From contig NC_134507.1 of NCBI RefSeq assembly GCF_027942865.1, positions 36,571,711-36,635,710 of the forward strand: DNA of 64,000 nucleotides, read 5' to 3'. The notes under the pieces were generated by a model. That model had not been told where the DNA came from, did no database searches, and saw only the letters and a program-made list of their open reading frames with translations. Both the position numbers and the translations under genes were made by a program. The first letter of the stretch is position 1; every line of letters starts with the position of its first letter. Source of the stretch: Odontesthes bonariensis (taxonomy: Eukaryota > Chordata > Actinopteri > Atheriniformes > Atherinopsidae). Shown here piece after piece: positions 5,907-64,000 of this stretch.

Positions 5907-6706
5907 ATAGATAATCCATGAGCCTAGTCAAGCGGTGAAGTTGTAAAGCAATGAGATGAAAAAAGTGATCAGAGCTTCATCCTCTGTGGCTGGTTGACTG
6001 TTAGAGCTTCCAGCTGCCTCTAACTCCCACACCTCAAAAAACAAATGTCCCTCACAGGGTAGACATCTCAGGTGATGTTCTGACTGGGATGGTTTATATA
6101 ATCAATATGTAGAAGTGTTTGTGTCCTACACTGTGTACCTGGAAAATACAATTATTGATCCATCACCTATTAACACTCTCATGCACTCTCCTTCACAGTG
6201 ACGGTGCTGCTGTCAACACAACTCATGATTAACTTCCGTCACAGAAATGGATGTTAATGACATGATCTTTATCCACAAGGACAATTCTTTCCAATTCTTA
6301 AAAAAATACAGTTATATTTACTTCTGCGCCCTGCATTTCTTTTGTTGAAACATCTGACGATCACCCTGTGACACACACACACACACACACAGACACGAGG
6401 AAGTTAACCAGCTTGGGCTGCTGCTGATTGGTTGGCAGACACCTCTGTTTCTATTGGCTCTCAGTCTCCATGTTGCTGATCCTGGACCTGCTGAGATGTC
6501 CCAGGCCATTGTTGGCTTTGATCCTCATACATTTAACTTTGTCCTGAGAAAGGACAAGTTCCAAAAAGTCAAACAGGGACTGCTTTTGCATTTGACGTAG
6601 TCAAACTGCATGCACCTGGAGAAGCCAAAAGGTTTACAGCACCTGGTATTCCCAGGCAGTCTCCCATCCAAGTATTAACCAGGCCCGACTCTGCTCAGCT
6701 TCTGAG
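5907..6706. repeat. Diverged duplicate of the U5-U2-5S array flank and of part of the array unit
   Basis: From 5907 the sequence matches 37281-37945 nearly base for base over about 640 bp, including the motif GATAATCCATGAGCCTAG and a CA microsatellite near 6370. From about 6333 to 6706 it also matches part of each 1,697-bp array unit (for example 39378-39657), ending with an inverted 5S fragment. It is therefore a relative of the array sequence about 31 kb away from it, lacking U5, U2 and complete 5S genes. Confidence 0.8.
6632..6706 (-). pseudogene. Orphan 5S rRNA fragment (3' two-thirds), inverted
   Basis: Read on the minus strand this is 5S rRNA from about nucleotide 44 to the 3' end. Landmarks are CTTGGATGGGAGACTGCC, GGGAATACCAGGTGCTGTAA and GCCTGGTTAATACTTGG. 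The first third of the gene is absent, so it cannot give a full 5S rRNA. It is homologous to the inverted 5S fragment carried by each array unit. Confidence 0.8.
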
Positions 6707-7460
6707 AAATATTCAAAGTTTGCTTTGTTAGAAGATACAGAGAGCAAAGATATCAGAATATTTGATGTAGCTATACGCACTTAACTAACAGGAATGTTTC
6801 ACTATGACACTGGGACCTTACTGCAGCATTTTTCAGAGTGTGGTTGAAGATGTGAGGACCTACAGACTCAGTTGGACCATCTCTGAATTCTTCAGACTTT
6901 AATTGGAGTTTGGGTTGAAAAACTGCTGGAACTGGGATGGAGAGCCATCTGTCCTTGTTCACAAACTGCTGCAAAGTCTGTTGATCAGTTCACAGTCATC
7001 GTCTTAATAATAATCTCGCAGTGCAGAGTCTCTGTATGTTTCAGATTCCTTCCAGGTCACCCAGATAAAGGAAGAAATAAAGTCAGAGTTTCAGCTTGTG
7101 CTGCCTCTCAGGTGGAGTTTAGGTGTGAGGACAGAGCACAAAGAGGCTTGAAGTCAGAGAGCTTCTCAGTTTGGGACAGGAGGAGGAGATGCTGGTGAAC
7201 ATGGAGGATGAAGAAGCATCTCTGAGCTCCCGCTGAAATCAATTCCCTCGCTGAGCTGATCGATCAGCAAGTCTGTGAAGTCAGAGAAAACCTCAGAAGG
7301 AAACAAAGGAAGTGCTATGCTAAAATACCATCAGTTAAAGTTCTGTTTCAAATGATCCTCCTGCAGTCAGAAGCAGGATTATTCATATTCAAATCAACAC
7401 CAAAATGTGAAAAATCAGAGGTCTTTCCACTCATTCGCATATTTTAATATAATCTGAGAT
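6707..7460. other. No recognised feature
   Basis: No gene, RNA or repeat end is identified between the orphan 5S fragment and the hAT MITE. Confidence 0.4.
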
Positions 7461-37280: not shown

Positions 37281-37945
37281 TATATAGATAATCCATGAGC
37301 CTAGTCAAGCGGTGAAGTTGTAAAGCAATGAGATTGCTGAGATTTTCTCATGAGAATGAGAAAAAAGTGATCAGAGCTTCATCCTCTGTGGCTGGTTGAC
37401 TGTTAGAGCTTCCAGCTGCCTCTAACTCCCACACCTCAAAAAACAAATGTCCCTCAAAGGGTAGACATCTCAGGTGATGTTCAGACTGGGGTGGTTTATA
37501 TAATCTATGTGTATAACTGTTTGTGTTCTACCACCCAGGTATAGAAAATAGTGATCCATCAGCTACTAACACTCTCATGCTCTCTCCTTCACAGTGACGG
37601 TGCTGCTGTCAACACATTAACAAATTAACTTCCGTCACAGAAATGGATGTTAATGACATGATTTTTATCCACAAGGACAATTCTTTCCAATTCTTCAAAA
37701 AAATACAGTTACATTTACTTCTGCGTCCTGCATGTCTTGTGTTGAAAAATTTGCCGATCACCCTGTGACACACACACACAGACACACAGACACGAGGAAG
37801 TTAACCAGTTTCGGCTGCTGCTGATTGGTTGGCAGACACCTCTGTTTCTATTGGCCCTCAGTCTCCATGTTTCTGATCCTGGACCTGCTGAGATGTCCCA
37901 GGCCATTGTTGGTTTTGATCCTCATACATTTAACTTTGTCCTGAG
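37281..37945. repeat. Left flank of the array, duplicate of 5907-6545
   Basis: About 640 bp matching 5907-6545 closely, with a short extra segment (GAGATTTTCTCATGAGAATG region) and a different CA repeat. It breaks off at CTTTGTCCTGAG and joins directly to U2 upstream sequence, which marks the array edge. Confidence 0.85.
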
Positions 37946-38106
37946 CGGGCGGGAGTGCAAAGTTGTACCATCTGAAACGGCTGAAGAGTGCTCACTGCAG
38001 CGGGTGGGCGGAGGTGCAAAGTGACGCTTTGTAGGCAAAAAAAGAGCACCGCCACAAGTGCGCATTGTGCCAGGAAGGGCTCTCGGACGTGAAAGAGTGG
38101 AGGGTT

Positions 38107-38158
38107 ATCGCTTCTCGGCCTTTTGGCTAAGATCAAGTGTAGTATCTGTTCTTATCAG
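38107..38158 (+). pseudogene. U2 snRNA, first 52 nt only
   Basis: Starts ATCGCTTCTCGGCCTTTTGG exactly as U2 and stops after CTTATCAG, where it joins GGTCGGCCGAGGAGCC of the U5 promoter spacer. The rest of U2, the 5S and the inverted 5S of that unit are deleted. Its promoter is intact, so a chimeric transcript running into the U5 promoter is conceivable. Confidence 0.9.
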
Positions 38159-38260
38159 CGGTCGGCCGAGGAGCCAGCGTCTCAACCAAGCAAAGCTCAC
38201 CGTGGGGAAGGTGGCTATGCCAACTAGCCTGATGCACTGCTCCCGCAGTGTCAAATACTC

Positions 38261-38379
38261 GTACTCTGGTTTCTCTTCATAACGTACAAGTCTTTCGCCT
38301 TTTACTAAAGACTTCCGTGGAGAGCAGCATTAATGAGTTGTTTCTATTTTTGGAAGGCTTTACCTTTGCGGGTGAAGCC
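38261..38379 (+). ncRNA. U5 snRNA, copy 1
   Basis: 119 nt starting GTACTCTGGTTTCTCTTCA. The invariant loop GCCTTTTAC, which contacts exon ends at the spliceosome core, is present and closed by AAGTCTTTC/TAAAGACTT. The Sm site is TATTTTTGG, followed by a 3' stem GGCTTTACC-TTTGC-GGGTGAAGCC. Length agrees with vertebrate U5 (about 116). A PSE-like TCACCGTGGGGAAGGTGG lies 47-64 bp upstream, as expected for pol II snRNA genes. Confidence 0.92.
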
Positions 38380-38678
38380 CATTCTGTCTGTGCAAAGGAA
38401 ATCTTCTTGCTGTGCCAAGTGACTTCTCGGAGTAGAGTCACCTTATTTCTTGAGACCGTGCCCATGTTCAAAGCCTGGAGCGCTAAATTGTTGTTGTTTG
38501 AATGGTGCTCAGTGGAGCGGGCGGGAGTGCAAAGTTGTACCATCTGAAACGGCTGAAGAGTGCTCACTGCAGCGGGTGGGCGGAGGTGCAAAGTCACGCT
38601 TTGTAGGCAAAAAAAGAGCACCGCCACAAGTGCGCATTGTGCCAGGAAGGGCTCTCGGACGTGAAAGAGTGGAGGGTT

Positions 38679-38865
38679 ATCGCTTCTCGGCCTTTTGGCT
38701 AAGATCAAGTGTAGTATCTGTTCTTATCAGTTTAATATCTGATACGTCCTCTATATGAGGACTACATATTAAATGAATTTTTAGGCACAAGGGTTGAAAA
38801 AGGGGCTTGCTCCGTTCACTCCACGCATCGACCCGGTACTGCAGTGCCGCCGGGAACGGTGCACT
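38679..38865 (+). ncRNA. U2 snRNA, copy 1
   Basis: 187 nt matching vertebrate U2 (188). The 5' end is ATCGCTTCTCGGCC. The branch-point pairing segment GTAGTA lies within AAGTGTAGTATCTG. Stem IIa is GTCCTC-TATAT-GAGGAC. Stem IV, CCCGGTACTGCAGTGCCGCC, shows paired changes relative to human that keep base pairing. This copy differs from the others near the Sm site (AAATGAATTTTTAGGCACAA). It carries its own GC boxes and PSE-like element upstream. Confidence 0.92.
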
Positions 38866-39233
38866 CTTCCCAACTCTTGTGAAATAACAAAACCAGCGGT
38901 ACATGGTGGTAGTTTCAGGGAGCCATTGTATTCTGACTTCTAAAATGGAACTATAATCTTTAGAAAAGACGCAGTTTATGAGCACGTCGTGGGATTGAGC
39001 TTCCCTGGTTTCTCTGTATGACCATGAACACCAAACTACACACAGAGAACAGAGGAGCTTGACAGACACACACTAAGTTATCTGAGAGTCCCATTTTCAG
39101 CTGCAGAGAACAATCACATCAGGGAAGTCGACGTGCAGGCTCAACATCAGCCTCTCAAGCCAACTCTCTGGTAAAATAGGGGCAACGTATGGTTCCAGCA
39201 CCTATGTAACACATATTTGTCACGGGGACTGTG

Positions 39234-39352
39234 GCTTACGGCCACACCGCCCTGAACACGCCCGATCTCGTCCGATCTCGGAAGCCAAGCAGGGTCGGGC
39301 CTGGTTAGTACTTGGATGGGAGACCGCTTGGGAATACCAGGTGCTGTAAGCA
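39234..39352 (+). rRNA. 5S rRNA, copy 1
   Basis: 119 nt, from GCTTACGGCCACACCGCC to GGTGCTGTAAGC. The internal control region is recognisable: box A AGCCAAGCAGGGTCG and box C CTTGGATGGGAGACCGC. A T run directly after the gene can terminate pol III. It has several changes from the common fish 5S, for example GCCAAGC for GCTAAGC. Confidence 0.92.
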
Positions 39353-39579
39353 TTTTTCTCTCTTCTCTTCTCTCTGCATGTCTTTTGTTGAAACATCTGT
39401 TGATCACCCTGTGATCCATCTTGCTGATCCTGGATCTGCTAAGGTGTCCCAGGTCATGGTTGCCTTTGATCCTCATACATTTAACTTTGTCCTGACAAAG
39501 GAGCAGTTCCAAAAAGTCAAACAGGGACTGCCTTTGCATTTGACGCAGTCAAACTGCATGCGCCTGGAGAAGCCAAAAG

Positions 39580-39657
39580 GCTTACAGCACCTGGTATTCC
39601 CAGGCGGTCTCCCCATCCAAGTACTAACCAGGCCCAACTCTGCTTAGCTTCTGAGAT
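39580..39657 (-). pseudogene. Inverted 5S fragment, copy 1
   Basis: On the minus strand it runs from about nt 44 to the 3' end of 5S. It has an extra base within box C. At the positions GCTAAGC and CCGCCTGGG it has the usual vertebrate bases where the sense copies of the array differ. The 5' third is missing. Confidence 0.85.
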
Positions 39658-39897
39658 AAAACTCTGGCTTTTAGTCTGCGAAAAGAGAGTGAAAGTGAAC
39701 TCCACTTTGAGATGGCTCTGGGATTGGGCCGACTGGGAGAATTGCTTGAAAAAAACCTCTACACCCAATGAGCGGTCAGAACAAAGCCTCAACACCCCTA
39801 GTCTTTTGCACAGAGTAAAAGACAAAGCAGCCATTGAATAGGGCCCGATTGTTCCTACCTGGTCGGCCGAGGAGCCAGCGTCTCAACCAAGCAAAGC

Positions 39898-39915
39898 TCA
39901 CCGTGGGGAAGGTGG
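39898..39915 (+). promoter_or_regulatory. PSE-like element of U5 (copy 2, representative)
   Basis: TCACCGTGGGGAAGGTGG fits the vertebrate snRNA proximal sequence element pattern (TCACC-N-T ... AAAGTG) and lies 47-64 bp upstream of U5. It is repeated at the same place in every unit. Confidence 0.65.
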
Positions 39916-39961
39916 CTATGCCAACTAGCCTGATGCACTGCTCCCGCAGTTTCAAATACTC

Positions 39962-40080
39962 GTACTCTGGTTTCTCTTCATAACGTACAAGTCTTTCGCC
40001 TTTTACTAAAGACTTCCGTGGAGAGCAACATTAATGAGTTGTTTCTATTTTTGGAAGGCTTTACCTTTGCGGGTGAAGCC
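39962..40080 (+). ncRNA. U5 snRNA, copy 2
   Basis: Same 119-nt structure as copy 1, differing at GAGCAACATT (copy 1 GAGCAGCATT). Loop GCCTTTTAC and Sm site TATTTTTGG are intact. Confidence 0.92.
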
Positions 40081-40314
40081 CATTCTGTCGGTGCAAAGGA
40101 AATCTTCTTGCTGTGCCAAGTAATTTCTCGGAGTAGAGTCACCTTATTTGTTGAGACCGTGCCCATGTTCAAAGCTGGAGCGCTAAATTGTTGTTTGAAT
40201 GGTGCTCAGTGGAGCGGGCGGGAGTGCAAAGTTGTACCATCTGAAACGGCTGAAGAGTGCTCACTGCAGCGGGTGGGCGGAGGTGCAAAGTCACGCTTTG
40301 TAGGCAAAAAAAGA

Positions 40315-40338
40315 GCACCGCCACAAGTGCGCATTGTG
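40315..40338 (+). promoter_or_regulatory. PSE-like element of U2 (copy 2, representative)
   Basis: GCACCGCCACAAGTGCGCAT, at -61 to about -38 of U2, resembles the vertebrate U2 PSE (CACCGC-x-AC core). Two GC boxes (40216-40222 GGGCGGG, 40273-40280 GTGGGCGG), each followed by GTGCAAAG, a degenerate octamer, lie upstream and may act as the distal element. Confidence 0.6.
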
Positions 40339-40375
40339 CCAGGAAGGGCGCTCGGACGTGAAACAGTGGAGGGTT

Positions 40376-40562
40376 ATCGCTTCTCGGCCTTTTGGCTAAG
40401 ATCAAGTGTAGTATCTGTTCTTATCAGTTTAATATCTGATACGTCCTCTATATGAGGACTACATATTAAATGGATTTTTAGGCACAGGGGTTGAAAAAGG
40501 GGCTTGCTCCGTTCACTCCACGCATCGACCCGGTACTGCAGTGCCGCCGGGAACGGTGCACT
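40376..40562 (+). ncRNA. U2 snRNA, copy 2
   Basis: Full-length U2 identical in architecture to copy 1, with AAATGGATTTTTAGGCACAG in the Sm region. The trailing spacer has the ATACAACTATAA variant. Confidence 0.92.
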
Positions 40563-40930
40563 CTTCCCAACTCTTGTGAAATAACAAAACCAGCGGTACA
40601 TGGTGGTAGTTTCAGGGAGCCGTTGTATTCTGACTTCTAAAATACAACTATAATCTTTAGAAAAGACGCAGTTTATGAGCACGTCGTGGGATTGAGCTTC
40701 CCTGGTTTCTCTGTATGACCATGAACACCAAACTACACACAGAGAACAGAGGAGCTTGACAGACACACACTAAGTTATCTGAGAGTCCCATTTTCAGCTG
40801 CAGAGAAAAAACACATCAGGGAAGTCGACGTGCAGGCTCAACATCAGCCTCTCAAGCCAACTCTCTGGTAAAATAGGGGAAACGTATGGTTCCAGCACCT
40901 ATGTAACACATATTTGTCACGAGGACTGTG

Positions 40931-41049
40931 GCTTACGGCCACACCGCCCTGAACACGCCCGATCTCGTCCGATCTCGGAAGCCAAGCAGGGTCGGGCCTG
41001 GTTAGTACTTGGATGGGAGACCGCTTGGGAATACCAGGTGCTGTAAGCA
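40931..41049 (+). rRNA. 5S rRNA, copy 2
   Basis: Same 119-nt sequence as copy 1 (CACACCGCC variant), exactly 1,697 bp downstream, with a T run after it. Confidence 0.92.
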
Positions 41050-41276
41050 TTTTTCTCTCTTCTCTTCTCTCTGCATGTCTTTTGTTGAAACATCTGTTGA
41101 TCACCCTGTGATCCATCTTGCTGATCCTGGATCTGCTAAGGTGTCCCAGGTCATGGTTGCCTTTGATCCTCATACATTTAACTTTGTCCTGACAAAGGAG
41201 CAGTTCCAAAAAGTCAAACAGGGACTGCCTTTGCATTTGACGCAGTCAAACTGCATGCGCCTGGAGAAGCCAAAAG

Positions 41277-41354
41277 GCTTACAGCACCTGGTATTCCCAG
41301 GCGGTCTCCCCATCCAAGTACTAACCAGGCCCAACTCTGCTTAGCTTCTGAGAT
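41277..41354 (-). pseudogene. Inverted 5S fragment, copy 2
   Basis: Same as copy 1, 346 bp after the start of the sense 5S. Confidence 0.85.
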
Positions 41355-41658
41355 AAAACTCTGGCTTTTAGTCTGCGAAAAGAGAGTGAAAGTGAACTCC
41401 ACTTTGAGATGGCTCTGGGATTGGGCCGACTGGGAGAATTGCTTGAAAAAAAGCTCTACACCCAATGAGCGGTCAGAACAAAGCCTCAACACCCCTAGTC
41501 TTTTGCACAGAGTAAAAGACAAAGCAGCCATTGAATAGGGCCCGATTGTTCCTACCTGGTCGGCCGAGGAGCCAGCGTCTCAACCAAGCAAAGCTCACCG
41601 TGGGGAAGGTGGCTATACCAACTAGCCTGATGCACTGCTCCCGCAGTGTCAAATACTC

Positions 41659-41777
41659 GTACTCTGGTTTCTCTTCATAACGTACAAGTCTTTCGCCTTT
41701 TACTAAAGACTTCCGTGGAGAGCAGCATTAATGAGTTGTTTCTATTTTTGGAAGGCTTTACCTTTGCGGGTGAAGCC
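41659..41777 (+). ncRNA. U5 snRNA, copy 3
   Basis: Full-length U5 with GAGCAGCATT. It is preceded by CCCGCAGTGTC, as in copy 1. Confidence 0.92.
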
Positions 41778-42072
41778 CATTCTGTCGGTGCAAAGGAAAT
41801 CTTCTTGCTGTGCCAAGTGATTTCTCGGAGTAGAGTCACCTTATTTGTTGAGACCGTGCCCATGTTCAAAGCTGGAGCGCTAAATTGTTGTTTGAATGGT
41901 GCTCAGTGGAGCGGGCGGGAGTGCAAAGTTGTACCATCTGAAACGGCTGAAGAGTGCTCACTGCAGCGGGTGGGCGGAGGTGCAAAGTCACGCTTTGTAG
42001 GCAAAAAAAGAGCACCGCCACAAGTGCGCATTGTGCCAGGAAGGGCGCTCGGACGTGAAACAGTGGAGGGTT

Positions 42073-42259
42073 ATCGCTTCTCGGCCTTTTGGCTAAGATC
42101 AAGTGTAGTATCTGTTCTTATCAGTTTAATATCTGATACGTCCTCTATATGAGGACTACATATTAAATGGATTTTTAGGCACAGGGGTTGAAAAAGGGGC
42201 TTGCTCCGTTCACTCCACGCATCGACCCGGTACTGCAGTGCCGCCGGGAACGGTGCACT
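42073..42259 (+). ncRNA. U2 snRNA, copy 3
   Basis: Full-length U2, same sequence class as copies 2 and 5 (CACTCCACGC in the 3' half). Confidence 0.92.
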
Positions 42260-42627
42260 CTTCCCAACTCTTGTGAAATAACAAAACCAGCGGTACATGG
42301 TGGTAGTTTCAGGGAGCCGTTGTATTCTGACTTCTAAAATACAACTATAATCTTTAGAAAAGACGCAGTTTATGAGCACGTCGTGGGATTGAGCTTCCCT
42401 GGTTTCTCTGTATGACCATGAACACCAAACTACACACAGAGAACAGAGGAGCTTGACAGACACACACTAAGTTATCTGAGAGTCCCATTTTCAGCTGCAG
42501 AGAAAAAACACATCAGGGAAGTCGACGTGCAGGCTCAACATCAGCCTCTCAAGCCAACTCTCTGGTAAAATAGGGGAAACGTATGGTTCCAGCACCTATG
42601 TAACACATATTTGTCACGAGGACTGTG

Positions 42628-42746
42628 GCTTACGGCCACACTGCCCTGAACACGCCCGATCTCGTCCGATCTCGGAAGCCAAGCAGGGTCGGGCCTGGTT
42701 AGTACTTGGATGGGAGACCGCTTGGGAATACCAGGTGCTGTAAGCA
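42628..42746 (+). rRNA. 5S rRNA, copy 3
   Basis: 119 nt with the CACACTGCC variant shared only with copy 5. Confidence 0.92.
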
Positions 42747-42973
42747 TTTTTCTCTCTTCTCTTCTCTCTGCATGTCTTTTGTTGAAACATCTGTTGATCA
42801 CCCTGTGATCCATCTTGCTGATCCTGGATCTGCTAAGGTGTCCCAGGTCATGGTTGCCTTTGATCCTCATACATTTAACTTTGTCCTGACAAAGGAGCAG
42901 TTCCAAAAAGTCAAACAGGGACTGCCTTTGCATTTGACGCAGTCAAACTGCATGCGCCTGGAGAAGCCAAAAG

Positions 42974-43051
42974 GCTTACAGCACCTGGTATTCCCAGGCG
43001 GTCTCCCCATCCAAGTACTAACCAGGCCCAACTCTGCTTAGCTTCTGAGAT
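42974..43051 (-). pseudogene. Inverted 5S fragment, copy 3
   Basis: Same as the other units. Confidence 0.85.
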
Positions 43052-43355
43052 AAAACTCTGGCTTTTAGTCTGCGAAAAGAGAGTGAAAGTGAACTCCACT
43101 TTGAGATGGCTCTGGGATTGGGCCGACTGGGAGAATTGCTTGAAAAAAACCTCTACACCCAATGAGCGGTCAGAACAAAGCCTCAACACCCCTAGTCTTT
43201 TGCACAGAGTAAAAGACAAAGCAGCCATTGAATAGGGCCCGATTGTTCCTACCTGGTCGGCCGAGGAGCCAGCGTCTCAACCAAGCAAAGCTCACCGTGG
43301 GGAAGGTGGCTATACCAACTAGCCTGATGCACTGCTCCCGCAGTTTCAAATACTC

Positions 43356-43474
43356 GTACTCTGGTTTCTCTTCATAACGTACAAGTCTTTTGCCTTTTAC
43401 TAAAGACTTCCGTGGAGAGCAACATTAATGAGTTGTTTCTATTTTTGGAAGGCTTTACCTTTGCGGGTGAAGCC
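43356..43474 (+). ncRNA. U5 snRNA, copy 4
   Basis: Full length, but the base before the loop is T (CTTTTGCCTTTTAC) where the others have C. The nine loop bases are unchanged. Confidence 0.9.
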
Positions 43475-43769
43475 CATTCTGTCGGTGCAAAGGAAATCTT
43501 CTTGCTGTGCCAAGTGATTTCTCGGAGTAGAGTCACCTTATTTGTTGAGACTGTGCCCCTGTTCAAAGCTGGAGCGCTAAATTGTTGTTTGAATGGTGCT
43601 CAGTGGAGCGGGCGGGAGTGCAAAGTTGTACCATCTGAAACGGCTGAAGAGTGCTCACTGCAGCGGGTGGGCGGAGGTGCAAAGTCACGCTTTGTAGGCA
43701 AAAAAAGAGCACCGCCACAAGTGCGCATTGTGCCAGGAAGGGCGCTCGGACGTGAAACAGTGGAGGGTT

Positions 43770-43956
43770 ATCGCTTCTCGGCCTTTTGGCTAAGATCAAG
43801 TGTAGTATCTGTTCTTATCAGTTTAATATCTGATACGTCCTCTATATGAGGACTACATATTAAATGGATTTTTAGGCACAGGGGTTGAAAAAGGGGCTTG
43901 CTCCGTTCACGCCACGCATCGACCCGGTACTGCAGTGCCGCCGGGAACGGTGCACT
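43770..43956 (+). ncRNA. U2 snRNA, copy 4
   Basis: Full length with CACGCCACGC (others CACTCCACGC), a variant shared with copy 6. The trailing spacer has TAGGACTATAA, also shared with copy 6. Confidence 0.92.
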
Positions 43957-44324
43957 CTTCCCAACTCTTGTGAAATAACAAAACCAGCGGTACATGGTGG
44001 TAGTTTCAGGGAGCCGTTGTATTCTGACTTCTAAAATAGGACTATAATCTTTAGAAAAGACGCAGTTTATGAGCATGTCGTGGGACTGAGCTTCCCTGGT
44101 TTCCCTGTATGACCATGAACACCAAACTACACACAGAGAACAGAGGAGCTTGACAGACACACACTAAGTTATCTGAGAGTCCCATTTTCAGCTGCAGAGA
44201 ACAATCACATCAGGGAAGTCGACGTGCAGGCTCAACATCAGCCTCTCAAGCCAACTCTCTGGTAAAATAGGGGAAACGTATGGTTCCAGCACCTATGTAA
44301 CACATATTTGTCACGAGGACTGTG

Positions 44325-44453
44325 GCTTACGGCCACACCGCCCTGAACACGCCCGATCTCGTCCGATCTCGTCCGATCTCGGAAGCCAAGCAGGGTCGGG
44401 CCTGGTTAGTACTTGGATGGGAGACCGCTTGGGAATACCAGGTGCTGTAAGCA
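44325..44453 (+). rRNA. 5S rRNA, copy 4, with 10-bp internal duplication
   Basis: Otherwise identical to copy 2, but CGATCTCGTC is present twice more in tandem before CGATCTCGG, making the gene 129 nt. The extra 10 nt would sit in the loop B/helix III region of the RNA and 5' of the main control boxes, so it may be transcribed but is unlikely to fold normally. Confidence 0.85.
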
Positions 44454-44680
44454 TTTTTCTCTCTTCTCTTCTCTCTGCATGTCTTTTGTTGAAACATCTG
44501 TTGATCACCCTGTGATCCATCTTGCTGATCCTGGATCTGCTAAGGTGTCCCAGGTCATGGTTGCCTTTGATCCTCATACATTTAACTTTGTCCTGACAAA
44601 GGAGCAGTTCCAAAAAGTCAAACAGGGACTGCCTTTGCATTTGACGCAGTCAAACTGCATGCGCCTGGAGAAGCCAAAAG

Positions 44681-44758
44681 GCTTACAGCACCTGGTATTC
44701 CCAGGCGGTCTCCCCATCCAAGTACTAACCAGGCCCAACTCTGCTTAGCTTCTGAGAT
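44681..44758 (-). pseudogene. Inverted 5S fragment, copy 4
   Basis: Same as the other units. Confidence 0.85.
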
Positions 44759-45062
44759 AAAACTCTGGCTTTTAGTCTGCGAAAAGAGAGTGAAAGTGAA
44801 CTCCACTTTGAGATGGCTCTGGGATTGGGCCGACTGGGAGAATTGCTTGAAAAAAAGCTCTACACCCAATGAGCGGTCAGAACAAAGCCTCAACACCCCT
44901 AGTCTTTTGCACAGAGTAAAAGACAAAGCAGCCATTGAATAGGGCCCGATTGTTCCTACCTGGTCGGCCGAGGAGCCAGCGTCTCAACCAAGCAAAGCTC
45001 ACCGTGGGGAAGGTGGCTATACCAACTAGCCTGATGCACTGCTCCCGCAGTTTCAAATACTC

Positions 45063-45181
45063 GTACTCTGGTTTCTCTTCATAACGTACAAGTCTTTCGC
45101 CTTTTACTAAAGACTTCCGTGGAGAGCAGCATTAATGAGTTGTTTCTATTTTTGGAAGGCTTTACCTTTGCGGGTGAAGCC
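45063..45181 (+). ncRNA. U5 snRNA, copy 5
   Basis: Full length, GAGCAGCATT variant. Confidence 0.92.
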
Positions 45182-45476
45182 CATTCTGTCGGTGCAAAGG
45201 AAATCTTCTTGCTGTGCCAAGTGATTTCTCGGAGTAGAGTCACCTTATTTGTTGAGACCGTGCCCATGTTCAAAGCTGGAGCGCTAAATTGTTGTTTGAA
45301 TGGTGCTCAGTGGAGCGGGCGGGAGTGCAAAGTTGTACCATCTGAAACGGCTGAAGAGTGCTCACTGCAGCGGGTGGGCGGAGGTGCAAAGTCACGCTTT
45401 GTAGGCAAAAAAAGAGCACCGCCACAAGTGCGCATTGTGCCAGGAAGGGCGCTCGGACGTGAAACAGTGGAGGGTT

Positions 45477-45663
45477 ATCGCTTCTCGGCCTTTTGGCTAA
45501 GATCAAGTGTAGTATCTGTTCTTATCAGTTTAATATCTGATACGTCCTCTATATGAGGACTACATATTAAATGGATTTTTAGGCACAGGGGTTGAAAAAG
45601 GGGCTTGCTCCGTTCACTCCACGCATCGACCCGGTACTGCAGTGCCGCCGGGAACGGTGCACT
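45477..45663 (+). ncRNA. U2 snRNA, copy 5
   Basis: Full length, same class as copy 3, including the trailing ATACAACTATAA spacer. Confidence 0.92.
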
Positions 45664-46031
45664 CTTCCCAACTCTTGTGAAATAACAAAACCAGCGGTAC
45701 ATGGTGGTAGTTTCAGGGAGCCGTTGTATTCTGACTTCTAAAATACAACTATAATCTTTAGAAAAGACGCAGTTTATGAGCACGTCGTGGGATTGAGCTT
45801 CCCTGGTTTCTCTGTATGACCATGAACACCAAACTACACACAGAGAACAGAGGAGCTTGACAGACACACACTAAGTTATCTGAGAGTCCCATTTTCAGCT
45901 GCAGAGAAAAAACACATCAGGGAAGTCGACGTGCAGGCTCAACATCAGCCTCTCAAGCCAACTCTCTGGTAAAATAGGGGAAACGTATGGTTCCAGCACC
46001 TATGTAACACATATTTGTCACGAGGACTGTG

Positions 46032-46150
46032 GCTTACGGCCACACTGCCCTGAACACGCCCGATCTCGTCCGATCTCGGAAGCCAAGCAGGGTCGGGCCT
46101 GGTTAGTACTTGGATGGGAGACCGCTTGGGAATACCAGGTGCTGTAAGCA
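46032..46150 (+). rRNA. 5S rRNA, copy 5
   Basis: 119 nt with the CACACTGCC variant of copy 3. Confidence 0.92.
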
Positions 46151-46377
46151 TTTTTCTCTCTTCTCTTCTCTCTGCATGTCTTTTGTTGAAACATCTGTTG
46201 ATCACCCTGTGATCCATCTTGCTGATCCTGGATCTGCTAAGGTGTCCCAGGTCATGGTTGCCTTTGATCCTCATACATTTAACTTTGTCCTGACAAAGGA
46301 GCAGTTCCAAAAAGTCAAACAGGGACTGCCTTTGCATTTGACGCAGTCAAACTGCATGCGCCTGGAGAAGCCAAAAG

Positions 46378-46455
46378 GCTTACAGCACCTGGTATTCCCA
46401 GGCGGTCTCCCCATCCAAGTACTAACCAGGCCCAACTCTGCTTAGCTTCTGAGAT
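46378..46455 (-). pseudogene. Inverted 5S fragment, copy 5
   Basis: Same as the other units. Confidence 0.85.
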
Positions 46456-46759
46456 AAAACTCTGGCTTTTAGTCTGCGAAAAGAGAGTGAAAGTGAACTC
46501 CACTTTGAGATGGCTCTGGGATTGGGCCGACTGGGAGAATTGCTTGAAAAAAAGCTCTACACCCAATGAGCGGTCAGAACAAAGCCTCAACACCCCTAGT
46601 CTTTTGCACAGAGTAAAAGACAAAGCAGCCATTGAATAGGGCCCGATTGTTCCTACCTGGTCGGCCGAGGAGCCAGCGTCTCAACCAAGCAAAGCTCACC
46701 GTGGGGAAGGTGGCTATACCAACTAGCCTGATGCACTGCTCCCGCAGTTTCAAATACTC

Positions 46760-46878
46760 GTACTCTGGTTTCTCTTCATAACGTACAAGTCTTTCGCCTT
46801 TTACTAAAGACTTCCGTGGAGAGCAACATTAATGAGTTGTTTCTATTTTTGGAAGGCTTTACCTTTGCGGGTGAAGCC
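46760..46878 (+). ncRNA. U5 snRNA, copy 6
   Basis: Full length, GAGCAACATT variant as in copies 2 and 4. Confidence 0.92.
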
Positions 46879-47173
46879 CATTCTGTCGGTGCAAAGGAAA
46901 TCTTCTTGCTGTGCCAAGTGATTTCTCGGAGTAGAGTCACCTTATTTGTTGAGACCGTGCCCATGTTCAAAGCTGGAGCGCTAAATTGTTGTTTGAATGG
47001 TGCTCAGTGGAGCGGGCGGGAGTGCAAAGTTGTACCATCTGAAACGGCTGAAGAGTGCTCACTGCAGCGGGTGGGCGGAGGTGCAAAGTCACGCTTTGTA
47101 GGCAAAAAAAGAGCACCGCCACAAGTGCGCATTGTGCCAGGAAGGGCGCTCGGACGTGAAACAGTGGAGGGTT

Positions 47174-47360
47174 ATCGCTTCTCGGCCTTTTGGCTAAGAT
47201 CAAGTGTAGTATCTGTTCTTATCAGTTTAATATCTGATACGTCCTCTATATGAGGACTACATATTAAATGGATTTTTAGGCACAGGGGTTGAAAAAGGGG
47301 CTTGCTCCGTTCACGCCACGCATCGACCCGGTACTGCAGTGCCGCCGGGAACGGTGCACT
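47174..47360 (+). ncRNA. U2 snRNA, copy 6
   Basis: Full length, shares CACGCCACGC and the TAGGACTATAA spacer with copy 4. It is the last U2 before the array ends. Confidence 0.92.
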
Positions 47361-47686
47361 CTTCCCAACTCTTGTGAAATAACAAAACCAGCGGTACATG
47401 GTGGTAGTTTCAGGGAGCCGTTGTATTCTGACTTCTAAAATAGGACTATAATCTTTAGAAAAGACGCAGTTTATGAGCATGTCGTGGGACTGAGCTTCCC
47501 TGGTTTCCCTGTATGACCATGAACACCAAACTACACACAGAGAACAGAGGAGCTTGACAGACACACACTAAGTTATCTGAGAGTCCCATTTTCAGCTGCA
47601 GAGAACAATCACATCAGGGAAGTCGACGTGCAGGCTCAACATCAGCCTCTCAAGCCAACTCTCTGGTAAAATAGTGGAAACGTATG

Positions 47687-47706
47687 GGAATATCAGGTGC
47701 TGTAGG
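47687..47706 (+). pseudogene. 5S rRNA stub at the array's right edge
   Basis: Only about 20 bp of the 5S 3' end remain (GGGAATATCAGGTGCTGTAG), joined to the upstream spacer at CGTATGG. The preceding ~100 nt of 5S are deleted. Spacer follows to about 47,760, then unrelated DNA. Confidence 0.8.
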
Positions 47707-48028
47707 TGAGTATTTTTCTCTTCTCTTCTCTCTGCATGTCTTTTGTTGAAACATCTGTTGTGACACAGATTTCTGAATAATATGCATCCTATTCTAATAC
47801 AAAGCTTTTATACTAGTCTCATGCCATTACTACATGGAACAATTTTCTATTACCGGTAATATCCCATAGTTATACAGATTTATAACTACAGTAATGCAAT
47901 CGTGTCAGCCTCTGTGCTTTTTTCCCCTCTATAACTTGTAAACTAAACAACTGGTTATACTATACAGGATGGCTGTGTGTGTGTGTGTTAGTGTGTGTGT
48001 GTCTGTCTGTGTGTGTTTACAGAAGCAA

Positions 48029-50045: not shown

Positions 50046-51419
50046 ATGACTGATACTGAGGCCCAGTGACTGATCTTGACTTGTCTGAACTTTTTTTTTC
50101 TCTTATCTTTGATGTCACTTTATGTTGTTGTTTGTGTATATAGTTTCCTGATTGCACTCCTACATGCACATGTATACAGTTCTCATTTTTATTGTTCACT
50201 TACACTTGATTTCTTGTTTGTTCCCATATCTGCTGTGGCACATACTCCACATGGCTCTTCTGTCTGCCGACTGCTCCTGGTCAGTCAGTCTGTCTGTCTC
50301 TCTCTCTCTCACACACACACACACTTAATTTCAAATATCTTTTCATGACAAATGTGCACTATACATGTCTTCACTTTGTTTACCAAATGAGCATGCAACT
50401 TGTTTGTTCCCATATCTGCTGTTGCACATGGCTCTCTCTCCTGTCTGCCCACTGCTCCTGGTCAGTCAGTCTGTCTCTGTCTCACACACACACACTCTCC
50501 CTCCACCTCCACCTCACCCCCCCCCCCCTTCTCGCTCTCTCTCCCCCTCACACACTTAATTTCAAATGTCTTGTCATGAAAAATGTGCACTATACATGTC
50601 TTAACTTTGTTTACTAAATGAGAATGCACTTGAATAAATGCACTTCAGCCCTTAAAGTGCCTTGAATTGCAGTAGCAGTGTGTTGTGTCATTTCTTATTC
50701 CAAGTCAACACTTTCAATGTTCTCCTTCAATCTATTCATTATAATGTAACCTACCAGTAATTATAATCATTCATGATATACCATCATCTGTAATAATAAA
50801 CACATGAACAGCATACAACTGTGAAGAAATAAAAAAGTTTATTGACTTAATAGACAATGTTGCAGAGGTAACAGTGTGTCATTTCCCCCATAATCAATGT
50901 CTCCATCACCATGTAGGCCTCAAACCAGCGGGTCGACCAATGGGAAGACAAAAATAAGAGCTTTAGAGGTTTTGTTTACATTCACATCCACATGTTTCTA
51001 AAAATAGCCACACCAATTAGTCTCATGTCTTTCTTTAACCACCTTTTTCTTTTTTTCATACAATACCAAGTACCAGCTGGTGGGTGAAAATTAATAAATC
51101 ACTCAAATGAAGTGATCAATAGACAGCAATGCAAGCATTAAAACACGATTCAATGTCCAACACTCCCAATTAGACAAAACACTTGTATAAAACGATCATT
51201 TAAGTCGTATTTTGTACATTTCCCTAGATTCACCCTGAAACAAAACTTCACCACATGGCCTGGCAGCTTTTGACAGCTAATTGACCAATAGTACAGCATG
51301 CCCATGATTTCCCATCCCTCCCTCTCCATGGATTTGATTGACAAATCTTTTACCCAATAATATGCCTTATTTGTCTTACAGTCTACATCCGATTTTGCAC
51401 TTTGTACGCGCTGAGGGCC
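50046..51419. other. 3' UTR and unrecognised sequence
   Basis: To about 50,660 this is the likely 3' UTR of the DUF6729-like gene, with AATAAA at 50634-50639. Beyond it no gene is visible. A minus-strand AATAAA near 50,841 could mark the end of an unseen minus-strand transcript. Confidence 0.35.
50216..50625 (+). repeat. Tandem ~190-bp duplication in the 3' UTR
   Basis: The block from TTGTTTGTTCCCATATCTGC to CTTTGTTTACCAAATGAG occurs twice in a row (about 50,216-50,392 and 50,400-50,625), each with its own CT/CA microsatellite. The second copy is longer because its microsatellite expanded and gained a C run. Confidence 0.8.
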
Positions 51420-51515
51420 ATTCGCAAGAATCAGCACAGCCGGTGTGCAATGGCTGAGCCTCATCCTGGGTGAACCACCTTCTTGATCATGGTATCTCCA
51501 CTGCCAGGTAAGTAT
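51420..51515 (-). pseudogene. U1 snRNA, 5' half only
   Basis: On the minus strand it begins ATACTTACCTGGCAGTGGAG with the intact 5' splice-site pairing segment, and has GATCAAGAAGG (stem I) and CCATTGCACACCGG (stem II, U1A site ATTGCAC). Similarity ends near nt 95. Stem III, the Sm site and stem IV are missing, so it cannot form an snRNP. About 320 bp of its promoter flank is duplicated with the complete copy. Confidence 0.85.
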
Positions 51516-52063
51516 GAGTTAGAACTGTCAGAGGCTGACACCTCTTTTCCAGGTGCCTCACTCGGCCGGACGGTGCAGCAAATTCAACTGTCTGCAGTGC
51601 CATGCCAGCAGCTAACCTGAATCTGAAAAGCTTGCAGATTAAAACACTCCGGCTTTTCTTCATCTTCCTGATCAGTTCTTGTTTCAACAACCAAGGAACT
51701 TGGAGCACAAATTGATTTAGTTTTTCCACTCTCCCCATCTCTAGAGCCACACCCACCCACACTGGGAAAATTCTTAGTTGAGGCAAACCCTCACGGCTTA
51801 ATATCTCCAGTGCAGAAATGCTGCCGTATTCTCATCTCGTTGTTGCCATCACTAAGGCAACGCCCACCTCCCTGGGGTGACTGCACTGTATGACCTCACC
51901 TGACAACTGCGCAGCTGCATATCAGCTGTGCAGACCTGCCGCAGCATTCAGCAAACCTTGCAAAACATGGGTTTTAAAGATGGAAAGGTGTCCTTAAAGC
52001 AGCAACGCCAGGACAAAAACCAAGGTAGAGTTGCCCAGGGATATTCACGTTATACAGTCAAAT
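51516..52063. repeat. Duplicated U1 promoter flank
   Basis: 51516-51832 matches 52228-52543 with few differences (for example AAAGCTTGCAGATTAAAACA in both). It contains the PSE-like element of the U1 half-copy. From 51,833 to 52,063 nothing is named apart from the 3' flank of the complete U1. Confidence 0.8.
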
Positions 52064-52227
52064 CAGGGGAGAGCGCGAACGCAGTCCCCAACTACCAGAA
52101 ATTATGCAGTCGAGATTCCCACATTTGGGGAATTCGGAAGGGTCAGTACAGCCGGTGTGCAATGGCTGAGCCTCGTCCTGGGTGAACCACCTTCTTGATC
52201 ATTGTATCTCCCCTGCCAGGTAAGTAT
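52064..52227 (-). ncRNA. U1 snRNA, full length
   Basis: 164 nt on the minus strand, the usual U1 length. It has the 5' end ATACTTACCTGG (pairs with 5' splice sites), stem I GATCAAGAAGG, stem II loop ATTGCAC (U1A site), and stem III ATTCCC-CAAATGT-GGGAAT, in which both sides changed together relative to human. The Sm site is AATTTCTGG and stem IV is GGGGACTGCGTTCGCGCTCTCCCC-like with intact pairing. One change next to the 70K-binding region (ATACAATG for ATACCATG) may be a variant. A PSE-like element sits 44-61 bp upstream. It recognises 5' splice sites in the spliceosome. Confidence 0.9.
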
Positions 52228-59739: not shown

Positions 59740-60736
59740 TGTCACAGCCCCTGGGGCTTGTGCTGGGCATGTCTCTCTCCTCCCTCTTTCTTTGGCTGTG
59801 TTCGAAACCGCCTACTACATACTACATACTTGAAAACGGCATACTCATCGATCTGACAGTATGCAGAGCGTTTACACACAGTGCACTTCACTCCTGCCCG
59901 AGCCGAAATCAGCCGGCCTGAAAAGCTGATTTCGCTTAAGCTATAAACTCTGTAAATATATAACTTTAGCAACATTTGAAACATTTTCAGGCAAGAAAGT
60001 AGTCATTTAGACCCCCAAGGTGTTGAAAATCTGACAAAATACCGGCTATTTACAATTTTGTTCCCACGAATTCGGCGCTACTAAAGCTAGCCGCAGTGAG
60101 TAACGAACTTCCGGTTATGCCGTTTTGACTGCTCTCGTCCCGTTAACGGAATTTGACCGTTCAAATGGCGATGGGCGACGTCACGTTACGTTGCATCTTG
60201 GGTAGTTTGAGTGTGACAAGTAACCTCATGATGAATACTCAACATTTCGGCGAATCTAGTATGTATCTAGTGTACATCCGGGAACTTAAAAAAGTATGAC
60301 TAGTAGGAATAGTAGGAGAAGTAGGCGGTTTCGAACACAGCCTTTGTCTCCTCCCTCAGACCAGGAAGCTGGTTGGAGTGTGCAGCAGTGATTGCGGCAG
60401 CTCGTACAACTGGCCGTCTGTGGGAGTGGATTTAAGCCGCCTTATTTTGTTAATTCTTCCCTTTTGGTTCCTGGCTGGGTTTGTGAGAACAGCATTGTGT
60501 TTTGGGATTGTTTGCTTTATCCTTTTGTTACGTTTAGCACCATACAACACCTTTGCCGCACATTTATGCTCCATAACACCACTACACTACTGATGACTGA
60601 TTGCCACATCCCATTGTTTTACTTTTGTTGAATTCGTAGCTTAAGTTCGAATAGTTTAAATAAATTTGATTTCCTTATAACTTACAAACCGTGTGCTTCC
60701 TCCTTTTTGATACGGCTTTTGAGCCAGGTCGTGTCA
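59740..60736 (+). repeat. Right LTR of the Gmr1-like fossil, split by a MITE
   Basis: 997 bp. Subtracting the 549-bp MITE and a 3-bp duplication leaves 445 bp, the same length as the left LTR. A purine-rich GGGGG precedes it. Confidence 0.9.
59794..60342. mobile_element. MITE inside the right LTR
   Basis: Ends GGCTGTGTTCGAAACCGCC and GGCGGTTTCGAACACAGCC are perfect inverted repeats. TTT is duplicated at the site (or CTTTG, depending on where the end is drawn). Comparison with the left LTR shows the empty site directly. It is probably PIF/Harbinger-like, with no transposase. Confidence 0.9.
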
Positions 60737-63700
60737 TTAGTAAAAGAAAAGGTAAAATCACGGCTTTGATGATTAAAACCTTTCCTTCAATGGTCAGTCC
60801 TCTAAGTCCCCAGTATCCTAGTCTTTGCTTGACTTTCCCTACCACGTCTGGCCAGTTTGATGTCCCTCCTCCTTCCCTGTCAAACATAATCCCCAGTATT
60901 TTCTGATTGGTCTGGGTTATAGTCACGGGGAGTCCTGTTGTCTCGGTCGCTGTCCATGGCCCATAAAATTGGGCTCAGGTCTTGTTTCTGTTTAGTTTTG
61001 CCCAGTGTTCAAACTATTCCGAGATTTTCGGAGGTCACTTTTTCTCTGGCGGGGGGGGGGGGGGGTGTTGCTTGCTTGCTTGCGCTTGACTCCAATTACG
61101 CACACAGGCTCCACACCTCCACACACGCATCGCGTCTGCAATCATAACTCATCAGGGGAAATCACATTTTGCCAATATTTTAGAGACCCCCCAACATTTC
61201 CCAAATCATGTTTTCGGGGGGGTCTCGTGTCAGTTTCAGGGGGTCTCGGATCCCCCGAGTCCCCCCGTAGTTCGAACACTGGTTTTGCCCCAGAGGCCCG
61301 TCCAAACCAGTCAGTCAAGTCCAGAGTCCTATTAATAGATAATAGGTTGGTGCATAAAATGTTCACATCGTCCATATATAAAACACACTTTGTCGATAGT
61401 CCCCCGCTCCCCGGGACTCTCACCCCATTGATTCGGTGGTCCCTTCTCAAGCTCTGTGCCAGTGGTTCCACACAGATGATGTAGAGGAGGGCAGATAACG
61501 GACAACCCTGACGGACACCGCAGTGGATGTTTACTGCTTTTGTCAGATGCCCGTTAACAAGGAATTTGCTGGTAATGTCCCGGTACAGCAGACCCACCCA
61601 AGCTATAAACCTTTCTGGGAACCCCACTTTTGGCAGTACCTGGAAAAGGTACTGGTGCGAGACCCAATCAAAGGCTTTCTCAAAGTCTAAATTTAAGACT
61701 GCTAGCCGAATGTTTCTGTCTCTCGCATAACAGATGGTGTCTCGGATCAGTACGAGGCTGTCGGTTATCTTCCTCCCCGGGATGGCACAGGCTTGATCCG
61801 GGTGAATCAGGTCTTCTAAAAACAAGGACATACGTGACGCTAAAAGTTTACTAAAAAGTTTACAGTCAAAGTTTAAAAGTGTAATCGGTCTCCAATTCTT
61901 CAAGTCAGTCTTGTCTTTTTTTTTGTGAAGAAGAGTCACTATCCCTGCTCTAAAACTGTCAGGAAGTCGCTCAAGTTGCTCAAATTCCATAAAAACAGTA
62001 AACAAGTCAGGTGCTAAAATATCCCAAAAGGTCAAATAAAATTCCAAGGGAAGTCCATCTTGTCCTGGGGACTTCCCTTTCTTAAAATTTGTAAAACATT
62101 TATTTAACTCTGAAATTGTAAAATCTTGGGTTAAAAGCACACTGTCTTTTACTGTTTTTTCTATGAAATTTAAAACTTCTGTCATGGTGTCCATTTCAAC
62201 AGGTTTTTGTTCGTACAGTTCACGATAAAATTGTTCAACAGCTTGTTTAATTTCTTCCATTGTATCAACTGTGCACCCGTTCTCTTTTGTTAGCTTTAAA
62301 ATGGCCCCCCCTTTATTCACAATTTTCTTAAAAAAATACCTTGTGCACTTCTCTCCTTCCTCTATTTCTCGTTCCCTGCTTCTTAAAATGACACCCTTAC
62401 TTTTAATATCTGCTAAAACCGACATCTCTGTTTTCACTTGTTTAATTTCATCATTAAAATCCATCCCTTGTTGGTTTAATTTAAAATAGCGCTGTAGTCG
62501 CTTCTGCAGTCCCATCATGCATCTGTTTTCCCTATTCTTTTTTCTCCTACCTGTCTAAAGAAAGTCTGGGTCTTTTCCTTCACCATTTCCCACCAGTGTG
62601 CACGTGTATCGTAAAAGTCTTGAAGGGTCTGCCACTCGTGGTACTGCTCCCGGTACTGACTAACTATTTCATTTTCTTTTAAAAGGGAGCAGTTTAGTTT
62701 CCACAGACCACTTCCGGAAGTCACACCCGAAGAGAGTGATAGGGTGCAGGAAAGCATCAGGTGATCGGAAAAGAAAACAGGGGTCAATCTAGCATCGGTT
62801 GGTGGGCAGTCCCGTGTAAAAAGGTAGTCTATACGAGAGGCTTTGGTGCCATCACCACTGAACCAGGTGAAGCCCTCCTCTCTGGGATGCATGGTCCTAA
62901 AACAGTCCTGAAGTTTAAAATCCTTGCATATGCCCTGTAATAAAACCGATGTTTTGTCAACTTTAAAAAATTCCCCTGCTCTTTTTCTGTCACTCCTGCT
63001 TAAAATACAGTTAAAATCACCCCCTAAAACTAGTGGTGCCCTACCTAGCATGTGGGACTGCAGGTCTTCTAAAAGGTCATACCGGTCATTTTTTTCGTTA
63101 AAGCCATAAATATTTAAGAGGTTAAAATCTTGTCCCATAAAAGTCAAATGTGCTAAAAGTGCCCGTCCGTCTCTCACCACAGTGCTGCCCTTCACCAGAA
63201 CCTGAGGGTTTTTGATTAAAATGGCCACTCCATCATTTTTGTTTTGGTTGGATCCACTCCACAATGATGTCTGTGGTCACATCTCCTCCCACTGTCTGTA
63301 GTGCTTTAAAAACGGTAGGCCGCATTCCTGTATTAAAAGAACATCTGACTTAAAAGAACTAAGAAAGGATAAAACACTCTGGGCTCTAACTTTCGACTTT
63401 ACACTTCTCACATTAATAGTTGAGAGAGTGAGTGTCATGAGTATGGTTAAAAACAACAGGTATGACATCTTAAAAGACTAAATGAGGGTTAAAACATTTA
63501 AAATGTCTTAAAAGCAGTTATGTAATTTCTTGTGAACGGAGCTCTTCCTTCACTTCTACAGGTGAGAGGCGAGGGTGTTGAGCTCTATTCCCCGGTCGGA
63601 CTCTGGGGGTTGGCCTCTGTTGCAAGGTTTTGTTAAACTTTGAGTCTCTAGGGGTTGATTGCAGAACTACATTTAAAAAAGAGACCTCATTTGGTGAATT

Positions 63701-64000
63701 GGAGGGGAAGACTCTGGGCTCCTCCACAGATGAACTGTCTGAGGTAGTCCCAGCTCTTCCCCTCTTCTCTGAGACTATAGGAGAATCAGAGGACAATTCT
63801 GATGCAAGCCTCTTTGTTTGCTGGGCATCTGGGAGGGAGGCATCCTCGCTATCATCCTGTGATTGGACTTCTTCACATTCTGAACTAGCTCCGCCTTCTG
63901 CCTGCACCACCTCCTCCTCTCCAGAACTCTCCATTGGTGGGGGTGTAGCAGGCCCCTCCCCCTCCTCGGCCTCACCTGACTGCTGTCCACCATTCAGGGA
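60737..64000 (-). mobile_element. Tx1-type LINE, 5' and central portion (runs off the window)
   Basis: Minus strand, from 64,000 down: end of ORF1 (63,518 to the window edge, acidic and Ser-rich, open past the edge). The endonuclease follows (63,468-62,515: LSTINVRSVKSKVRAQSVLS, DVLLIQECGLP, LVLGGDFNCIL, FFSDHLMLSCTLSL) with a frame change near 63,270. Then reverse transcriptase (62,518-61,290: WRPITLLNFDCKLFSKLLA, HPDQACAIPGRKITDSLVLI, LNLDFEKAFDWVSH, GVRQGCPLSALLYI, YMDDVNILC). Then 61,002-60,737 with a stop, ending KVLIIKAVILPFLL at the LTR element. The wording matches the Tx1 149-kDa protein type of L1-group LINE. Confidence 0.88.
61003..61281. mobile_element. hAT-type MITE inside the LINE
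   Basis: 279 bp, CAGTGTTCAAACTA ... TAGTTCGAACACTG, with exact 8-bp duplication GTTTTGCC on both sides (60995-61002, 61282-61289). It interrupts the LINE polymerase right after the SGAK motif. It holds a 14-G run and no transposase. Confidence 0.9.

Follow-up and report, generated by a model that had tools for sequence, protein, structure and literature searches.

Genes for 5S ribosomal RNA (rRNA) and for the spliceosomal small nuclear RNAs (snRNAs) have been found linked in fish before. In the Senegalese sole, Solea senegalensis, a 5S-U1-U2-U5 linkage was reported by Manchado et al. (2006, Genome 49:79-86), as cited in PMC3464664, PMC3544641, PMC4696792 and PMC7824234, and U2-U5 linkage is described as the common situation among the fishes studied (PMC3464664). 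Here we analyse a 64-kb stretch of the Odontesthes bonariensis genome (C2:36571711-36635710, hereafter the window, C2 being contig NC_134507.1). It carries a tandem array of U5, U2 and 5S genes that is a small sample of a multi-megabase cluster on the same contig. The reading we favour, and to which we give a probability of roughly 75%, is that this is a concerted-evolution array of composite units: a 5S block was captured by a U5-U2 unit, and the product was amplified on C2.

The published teleost U2-U5 units place U5 in the spacer between U2 genes and are ~1 kb long, e.g. 1005-1052 bp in the grunt (PMC3464664) and 977 bp in the hake, a sum that we computed from a 786-bp spacer and a 191-nt U2 (PMC4696792). 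The C2 unit measures 965 bp once its 5S block is subtracted, which is near these values. No 5S inside such a unit is reported in the available excerpts of these papers, and fluorescence in situ hybridization (FISH) places 5S and U2-U5 on different chromosomes in the grunt (PMC3464664); the C2 unit differs in both respects. In the sole, as far as the available excerpts go, 5S is linked to U2 and U5 as in the C2 unit. However, U1 is part of the sole linkage, whereas the C2 unit lacks U1, which has 712-bp arrays of its own. The kind of linkage is already known from the sole, a precedent that the initial annotation of the window had mentioned and that the papers cited above bear out; what is informative here is the scale, the separate versions of the RNAs and a traceable origin. 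The available excerpts of the sole accounts say nothing about copy number, about canonical loci kept separate or about where an inverted 5S came from. A literature search that took in few subscription journals, with its sources available in part, returned neither a genome-scale U5-U2-5S unit at such copy number nor an account in which an inverted 5S descends from a convergent pair. The present analysis gives a genome-scale view (number and place of units, isoforms, origin) of a linkage that the available accounts describe from polymerase chain reaction (PCR) clones and FISH.

The composite unit and the cluster on C2

Genes in the window were called with Rfam covariance models at their gathering thresholds, the check that had been proposed for U5, U2 and 5S in the initial annotation. 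The array spans 9.8 kb. U2 is present six times (181-186 bits), U5 six times (86-88 bits) and complete 5S five times (102-111 bits), all on the plus strand; these are the copy numbers originally read from the letters. All 17 exceed the gathering threshold along the whole model, which sets them apart from plain pseudogenes. The U5 genes (RF00020, +) lie at 38261..38373 (86.1 bits), 39962..40074 (87.9 bits, in the unit we use as reference), 41659..41771 (86.1 bits), 43356..43468 (87.3 bits), 45063..45175 (86.1 bits) and 46760..46872 (87.9 bits). The U2 genes (RF00004, +) lie at 38679..38869 (181.3 bits), 40376..40566 (185.9 bits, reference unit), 42073..42263 (185.9 bits), 43770..43960 (183.2 bits), 45477..45667 (185.9 bits) and 47174..47364 (183.2 bits), and the 5S genes (RF00001, +) at 39234..39352 (111.3 bits), 40931..41049 (111.3 bits), 42628..42746 (108.5 bits), 44325..44453 (129 nt, 101.9 bits) and 46032..46150 (108.5 bits).

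When the window is compared with itself at an offset of 1697, 245-250 of 250 bases are identical across much of the array, against ~50-80 outside it. Together with the Rfam calls this upholds the 1,697-bp, single-strand U5-U2-5S unit proposed earlier and refines its length: the five complete unit intervals measure 1697 bp (three), 1701 bp (one) and 1707 bp (one). The last is longer because of a 10-bp duplication in its 5S gene, the fourth in the array, where CCGATCTCGT is present in 2.9 copies (44353-44381); judging from this duplication, the gene is probably defective. The order in the reference unit is U5, 292 bp, U2, 364 bp, 5S, 226 bp, an inverted 5S relic, 261 bp and the next U5. A fold of the reference copy suggests that the U5 RNA probably extends ~9 nt past the Rfam end, into a 3' stem.

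The scale of the cluster becomes apparent from whole-genome searches, which covered 945 Mb in 187 contigs. A 21-base pattern from the U5 promoter of the unit, with two mismatches allowed, has 502 sites, and its reversed control has 0. Among the 100 matches listed, every site is on C2, at 32.26-33.76 Mb, and a 30-base variant of the pattern places 16 of 16 sites on C2, at 32.65-39.43 Mb, four of them inside the window. In one array, within C2:32705001-32775000, most modules occur 36 times (uninterrupted U2 35 times) at a strict spacing of 1695 bp. A pattern from the U1 promoter in the window has 261 sites genome-wide (reversed control 0), of which the 100 listed are all on C2 at 32.23-35.30 Mb, mostly 712 bp or multiples of it apart. 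A distance of 0.6 kb separates the end of the first U1 block from the first U5 site listed, and U1 and U5 sites are interleaved. In the window, separate 712-bp repeats lie 3.6 kb past the array and hold two U1 copies, at 52064-52227 (-, 147.6 bits) and, degenerate, at 51373-51515 (-, 73.6 bits); both (51373..52227, -) belong to a 712-bp repeat of the kind that makes up the U1 arrays of the cluster.

Head-to-tail repeats are closer to each other within one array than across arrays, as expected under concerted evolution. For example, 35 units of the 36-copy array show a mean of 2.2 differences per 1695-bp unit, while array consensuses differ by up to 45 positions (the window against L037, a locus at 36.06 Mb on C2). 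This also bears on the idea that the arrays were produced by the assembler, which would have merged or over-expanded the repeats. Repeats of this size may mislead assemblers, as is generally known. However, the arrays carry distinct variants, the edges of the window array have flanks of their own, and the genome was assembled in just 187 contigs; we regard an artefact as very improbable.

Each gene of the unit appears to be equipped for its own expression. An ACC core is found at -59 to -62 in six snRNA gene types, whose 3' boxes look similar by eye. In the reference unit this common core falls at -59 in the putative proximal sequence element (PSE) of U2 (40314..40335, +) and at -62 in that of U5 (39897..39918, +). 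With an upstream element near -60 and a 3' box of their own, U5 and U2 would be transcribed by RNA polymerase II (pol II), and 5S, with its own internal control region and T-run, by pol III. Separate transcription is expected because each gene keeps its own signals, and on these sequence grounds the three genes are most likely transcribed separately. The tandem form would homogenise the copies and couple the dosage of U5, U2 and 5S.

Likely source of the 5S block and of the inverted relic

The initial annotation had also pointed out an inverted 5S relic. This too holds: five copies on the minus strand score 37.9 bits with RF00001, barely below the cut-off of 38. The first, at 39579..39657 (scored over 39579-39700), contains the 3' part of a 5S gene alone, cut near 5S nt 42, and the others start at 41276, 42973, 44680 and 46377, the same repeat position in the later units.

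Both the 5S gene and its relic can probably be traced to another part of the genome. A pattern from the 5S start of the unit, with three mismatches allowed, has 1135 sites, which exceeds the 502 units. A search for a variant led to two loci on contig C16, L040 (28.71 Mb) and L041 (31.53 Mb), which carry a 5S-only repeat of ~893-900 bp, about two units per locus, in which one 5S on the plus strand faces one full-length convergent 5S on the minus strand. Positions 763-1250 and 1252-1494 of the composite unit match these loci at 89-93% identity and in one order. The match begins 56 bp behind U2 and runs into the convergent 5S, to which, in its full-length form in L040, the inverted relic is homologous. 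As the match keeps a single order, one block of 732 bp (5' flank, 5S, spacer and part of the convergent 5S) comprises both the 5S gene and the inverted relic; it occupies 40623..41354 (+) in the reference unit by alignment to L040 and L041. An independent insertion of the inverted 5S, or its origin as a short interspersed element (SINE), is ruled out by the convergent-pair 5S array. The two C16 loci are themselves 99.97% identical over 3032 bp, which may reflect either a segment of C16 that was duplicated recently or an assembly in which one piece is present twice.

At one mismatch or fewer, this 894-bp class of 5S repeat has 814 sites. Among the 100 matches listed, 96 are on C16, largely in arrays at 26.3 Mb, and the remainder are on C9 (2), C12 (1) and C2 (1). 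The 5S of the class carries C53/U95, as does the 5S of the composite unit; the canonical-type bases of the relic, in turn, are due to its derivation from the inverted member of the donor pair. We had considered a second 5S array on C16, at 12.55 Mb, as the donor (80% identity over 431 bp), but this was superseded by the 894-bp class with its 89-93%. The unit of that array has the same length as the composite unit (~1697 bp), which looks like a coincidence, since just ~430 bp align.

These observations can be joined into a sequence of events. A ~965-bp teleost U5-U2 tandem unit would have captured the 732-bp block 56 bp downstream of U2. The source would have been a 5S array of convergent pairs, and the capture would have severed one partner and left it as the inverted relic. 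The composite would then have been amplified on C2 to ~500 copies over ~8 Mb, in blocks of both orientations and alongside the U1 arrays. From the cut relic we infer the direction of transfer: out of the 5S array and into the U5-U2 unit, not the reverse. In a solitary 5S-array fragment at 6346..6707 (+), 93% identical to L040, the cut through the inverted 5S falls where it does in the array units, and a segment missing from those units is kept; this suggests that the cut block was present on C2 before the present form of the unit. The left flank of the array (37720..37945, +) is a remnant of the donor-type 5S 3' spacer (85% identity over 227 bp to L040), and likewise retains a segment absent from the array units.

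Two classes of RNA and their possible use

The RNAs encoded on C2 are not the only versions in this genome. We searched for the U2, U5, 5S and U6 families with up to ~50 scored candidates per RNA, and report the matches listed. The strongest U2 matches are nine genes on C14 (191-195 bits). A U1 gene lies close by on the same strand at seven of these nine, and the remaining two stretches end too soon to tell. At least five U5 genes of another type are on C15, four of five in two pairs ~815 bp apart, and no U2 was seen in the C15 stretches examined around them. All 47 listed 5S matches are on C16, at 12.55-12.76 Mb, in the array mentioned above, whose ~1697-bp unit holds two opposed 5S genes; four 3-kb loci scanned from this array contain no U2 or U5. 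The C2 genes are, on the evidence of their sequences, a second isoform class alongside canonical U1, U2 and U5 loci. For U2, U5 and U1 the high-copy and low-copy classes are apart, and for 5S both classes are multicopy.

The two classes differ at many positions. C2-type U1 has 7-8 differences from the U1 of C14, counted by eye, and the two 5S versions that we compared have five, at positions 12, 16, 53, 95 and the last base. For U2, 28 of 191 positions differ between the array and C14, none of them within nt 1-71, the region that pairs with U6 and the branch site; sites that tell the classes apart lie in nt 72-80, 107-122 and 156-174. The chance of all 28 changes falling in nt 72-191 is 6e-7. 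Among 45 base pairs, those that are standard in C14 all remain unbroken in the array copy, and non-standard pairs fall from four to two. When the same substitutions were redistributed randomly over nt 67-191 in 5000 trials, 4.67 pairs were broken on average and zero in 0.1% of trials (P=0.001). U2 thus appears, from this comparison of the copies, to have diverged in a way that kept its structure. In U5, the loop-stem pair 30-52 is compensated on both sides, from A-U to G-C, a further stem pair is broken, and a fold of the reference copy has the 3' stem intact in another register.

Several observations weigh against the account that we favour. The pattern counts do not imply that every unit is complete. 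A human PSE consensus scores no higher than shuffled sequences. The lone listed C2 site of the 894-bp class (L042) lies in a composite unit whose 5S starts in donor-like fashion. The two 5S classes are thus not wholly separate, and may have undergone exchange. Two U2 pairs are altered on both sides, which is not rare under the random redistribution (P=0.18). Of the U5 pairs in the Rfam alignment, three are broken, and two of these belong to the 3' stem that folds in another register. The Sm-like site of C2 U2, AUUUUUAGG, departs from the usual consensus. Variable sites among 35 units of the 36-copy array are found at 10 of 432 gene positions and 10 of 1263 spacer positions (P=0.018); among four array consensuses the counts are 7 of 432 and 45 of 1252 (P=0.051, which is marginal). 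The excess of variation in genes over spacers in the 36-copy array gives no indication that purifying selection acts on it at present; between the consensuses genes vary less than spacers, though at the margin. We had entertained purifying selection inside the arrays, and dropped it because the pattern is rather reversed.

Such data could also be read as the mark of a decaying satellite, whose units spread as selfish tandem repeats and whose copies have, for the most part, ceased to be of use to the cell. The excess variation in genes would fit, as would the truncated edges of the array, the 10-bp insertion in one 5S and the 62 retrotransposon junctions in U2 that are described below. However, all 17 U5, U2 and 5S genes of the window are far over their Rfam cut-offs, and the divergence from the C14 U2 broke no pair and left nt 1-71 untouched. 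On balance we consider this explanation unlikely, and retain that of a captured 5S block and an amplified composite.

Among functional extensions of the favoured explanation, a supply of RNA to the egg is the strongest. In zebrafish, Region-2 of chromosome 4 (Chr4) holds maternal 5S genes and maternal U1 and U6 genes, and 12 somatic 5S genes are on Chr18 (PMC11075544). Switching between snRNA isoforms during development is described from fly, Xenopus and mouse (PMC4291461). By analogy with these cases and with the embryonic U1 of Xenopus, the C2 units might be an oocyte (maternal) stockpile that supplies the egg with its own U1, U2, U5 and 5S, and the canonical loci would provide for the body. 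This would extend the favoured explanation and does not contradict it, and we regard it as plausible in itself, at a little below even odds. Divergent isoforms in many copies (502 sites for U2 and U5, 261 for U1, and 5S) argue for it, as do the few canonical copies among the matches listed (nine U2 on C14, five U5 on C15) and the precedents just cited, of which excerpts were available. On the other side, none of the 11 U6 matches listed is on C2, few of the NLR matches listed are there, and the canonical 5S array is multicopy too (at least 47 matches).

The resemblance to the zebrafish block, as far as the available excerpts describe it, is that a separate class of isoforms is encoded by many 5S and snRNA genes in one chromosome region, with few standard copies elsewhere. 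They describe no composite unit there, whereas C2 has one; the zebrafish block includes U6, unlike C2 among the matches listed; and NLR genes are concentrated there, with few on C2 among the matches listed. The idea that C2 is an NLR hub comparable to zebrafish chromosome 4 finds little support, with 4 of the 150 FISNA (fish NLR) matches listed at 32-40 Mb on C2 (1.25 expected, P=0.04); the many such genes in the genome are in keeping with a teleost. A complete spliceosomal set on C2 was rejected, as none of the listed U6 matches is there. The largest share of the 150 FISNA matches is on C16, which also has 5S arrays, the same pairing as on zebrafish chromosome 4.

In its broadest form, the cluster might be a dedicated second RNA supply, probably of the egg. 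Divergent yet structurally intact isoforms of U1, U2, U5 and 5S would be co-amplified in hundreds of copies, genes of both polymerases would be joined in one unit so that their dosage changes in step, and the canonical U2-U1, U5 and 5S loci would be kept apart, with the composite having arisen from a U5-U2 array that captured part of a convergent 5S pair. This combination is tentative, and we would expect it to be wrong somewhat more often than right. The many diagnostic differences between the isoform classes allow a clean test of an egg-specific RNA set beyond zebrafish.

A Keno-type element in U2, and other features of the window

Some U2 copies are interrupted by an element with a long open frame (L017:305-3844) that contains an AP-type (apurinic/apyrimidinic) endonuclease, a reverse transcriptase and a zf-RVT domain (PF03372, PF00078 and PF13966). 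At L037, U2 runs through nt 52, is followed by the element and an A-rich tail, and resumes at nt 38 or 39. This overlap corresponds to a duplication of TCTGTTCTTATCAG. L017 and another locus, L039, show the 3' junction alone. A pattern for this junction has 62 sites, all on C2, 61 at 32.2-40.1 Mb and one at 45.34 Mb. Keno is described, in the available excerpt, as a U2-specific AP-endonuclease non-long-terminal-repeat (non-LTR) retrotransposon of fish and other animals (PMC4640811). The element fits Keno in having an AP-type endonuclease and a reverse transcriptase and in inserting into U2, and we name it by target and domains, not by a tree; the comparison is at the level of the U2 target. 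With 62 of 62 junctions on one contig, the multicopy RNA array is the home of a target-specific retrotransposon.

The element may also bear on the left edge of the window array (37943..38158, +). Here BLAST with the modules of the unit and direct reading of the junction show a U2 promoter and U2 nt 1-52, then the U5 5' flank. The U2 fragment occupies 38107-38158, and Rfam gives the region 67.2 bits. The break at U2 nt 52 coincides with one end of the target-site duplication of the element, and a failed insertion may have caused the deletion at this edge. The same architecture recurs in L037 (2435-3435), with Keno-type pieces inside U2, which suggests that the left edge as such was copied along the contig. 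At the right edge (47688..47760, +), direct reading and BLAST reveal the 3' tail of a deleted sixth 5S and its 3' flank. Further Keno-type pieces, 95-99% identical to the L017 element, are found outside U2 in the window, at 60736..63781 (-) and 53030-53686.

The remainder of the window contains a full-length match to the metazoan signal recognition particle (SRP) RNA (8549-8847, -, 235.8 bits), possibly a gene or a recent copy, and a 12-bp tandem repeat in 37 copies (19261-19707), in which several reading frames of either strand stay open. At 21661-22395 (+), an 84-bp repeat underlies a C2H2 zinc-finger array, seven fingers of which match Pfam. Open frames at 30149-32494 (-) resemble a helicase-bearing transposon, Helitron-like by eye, and several more retroelement-like frames occur elsewhere in the window.

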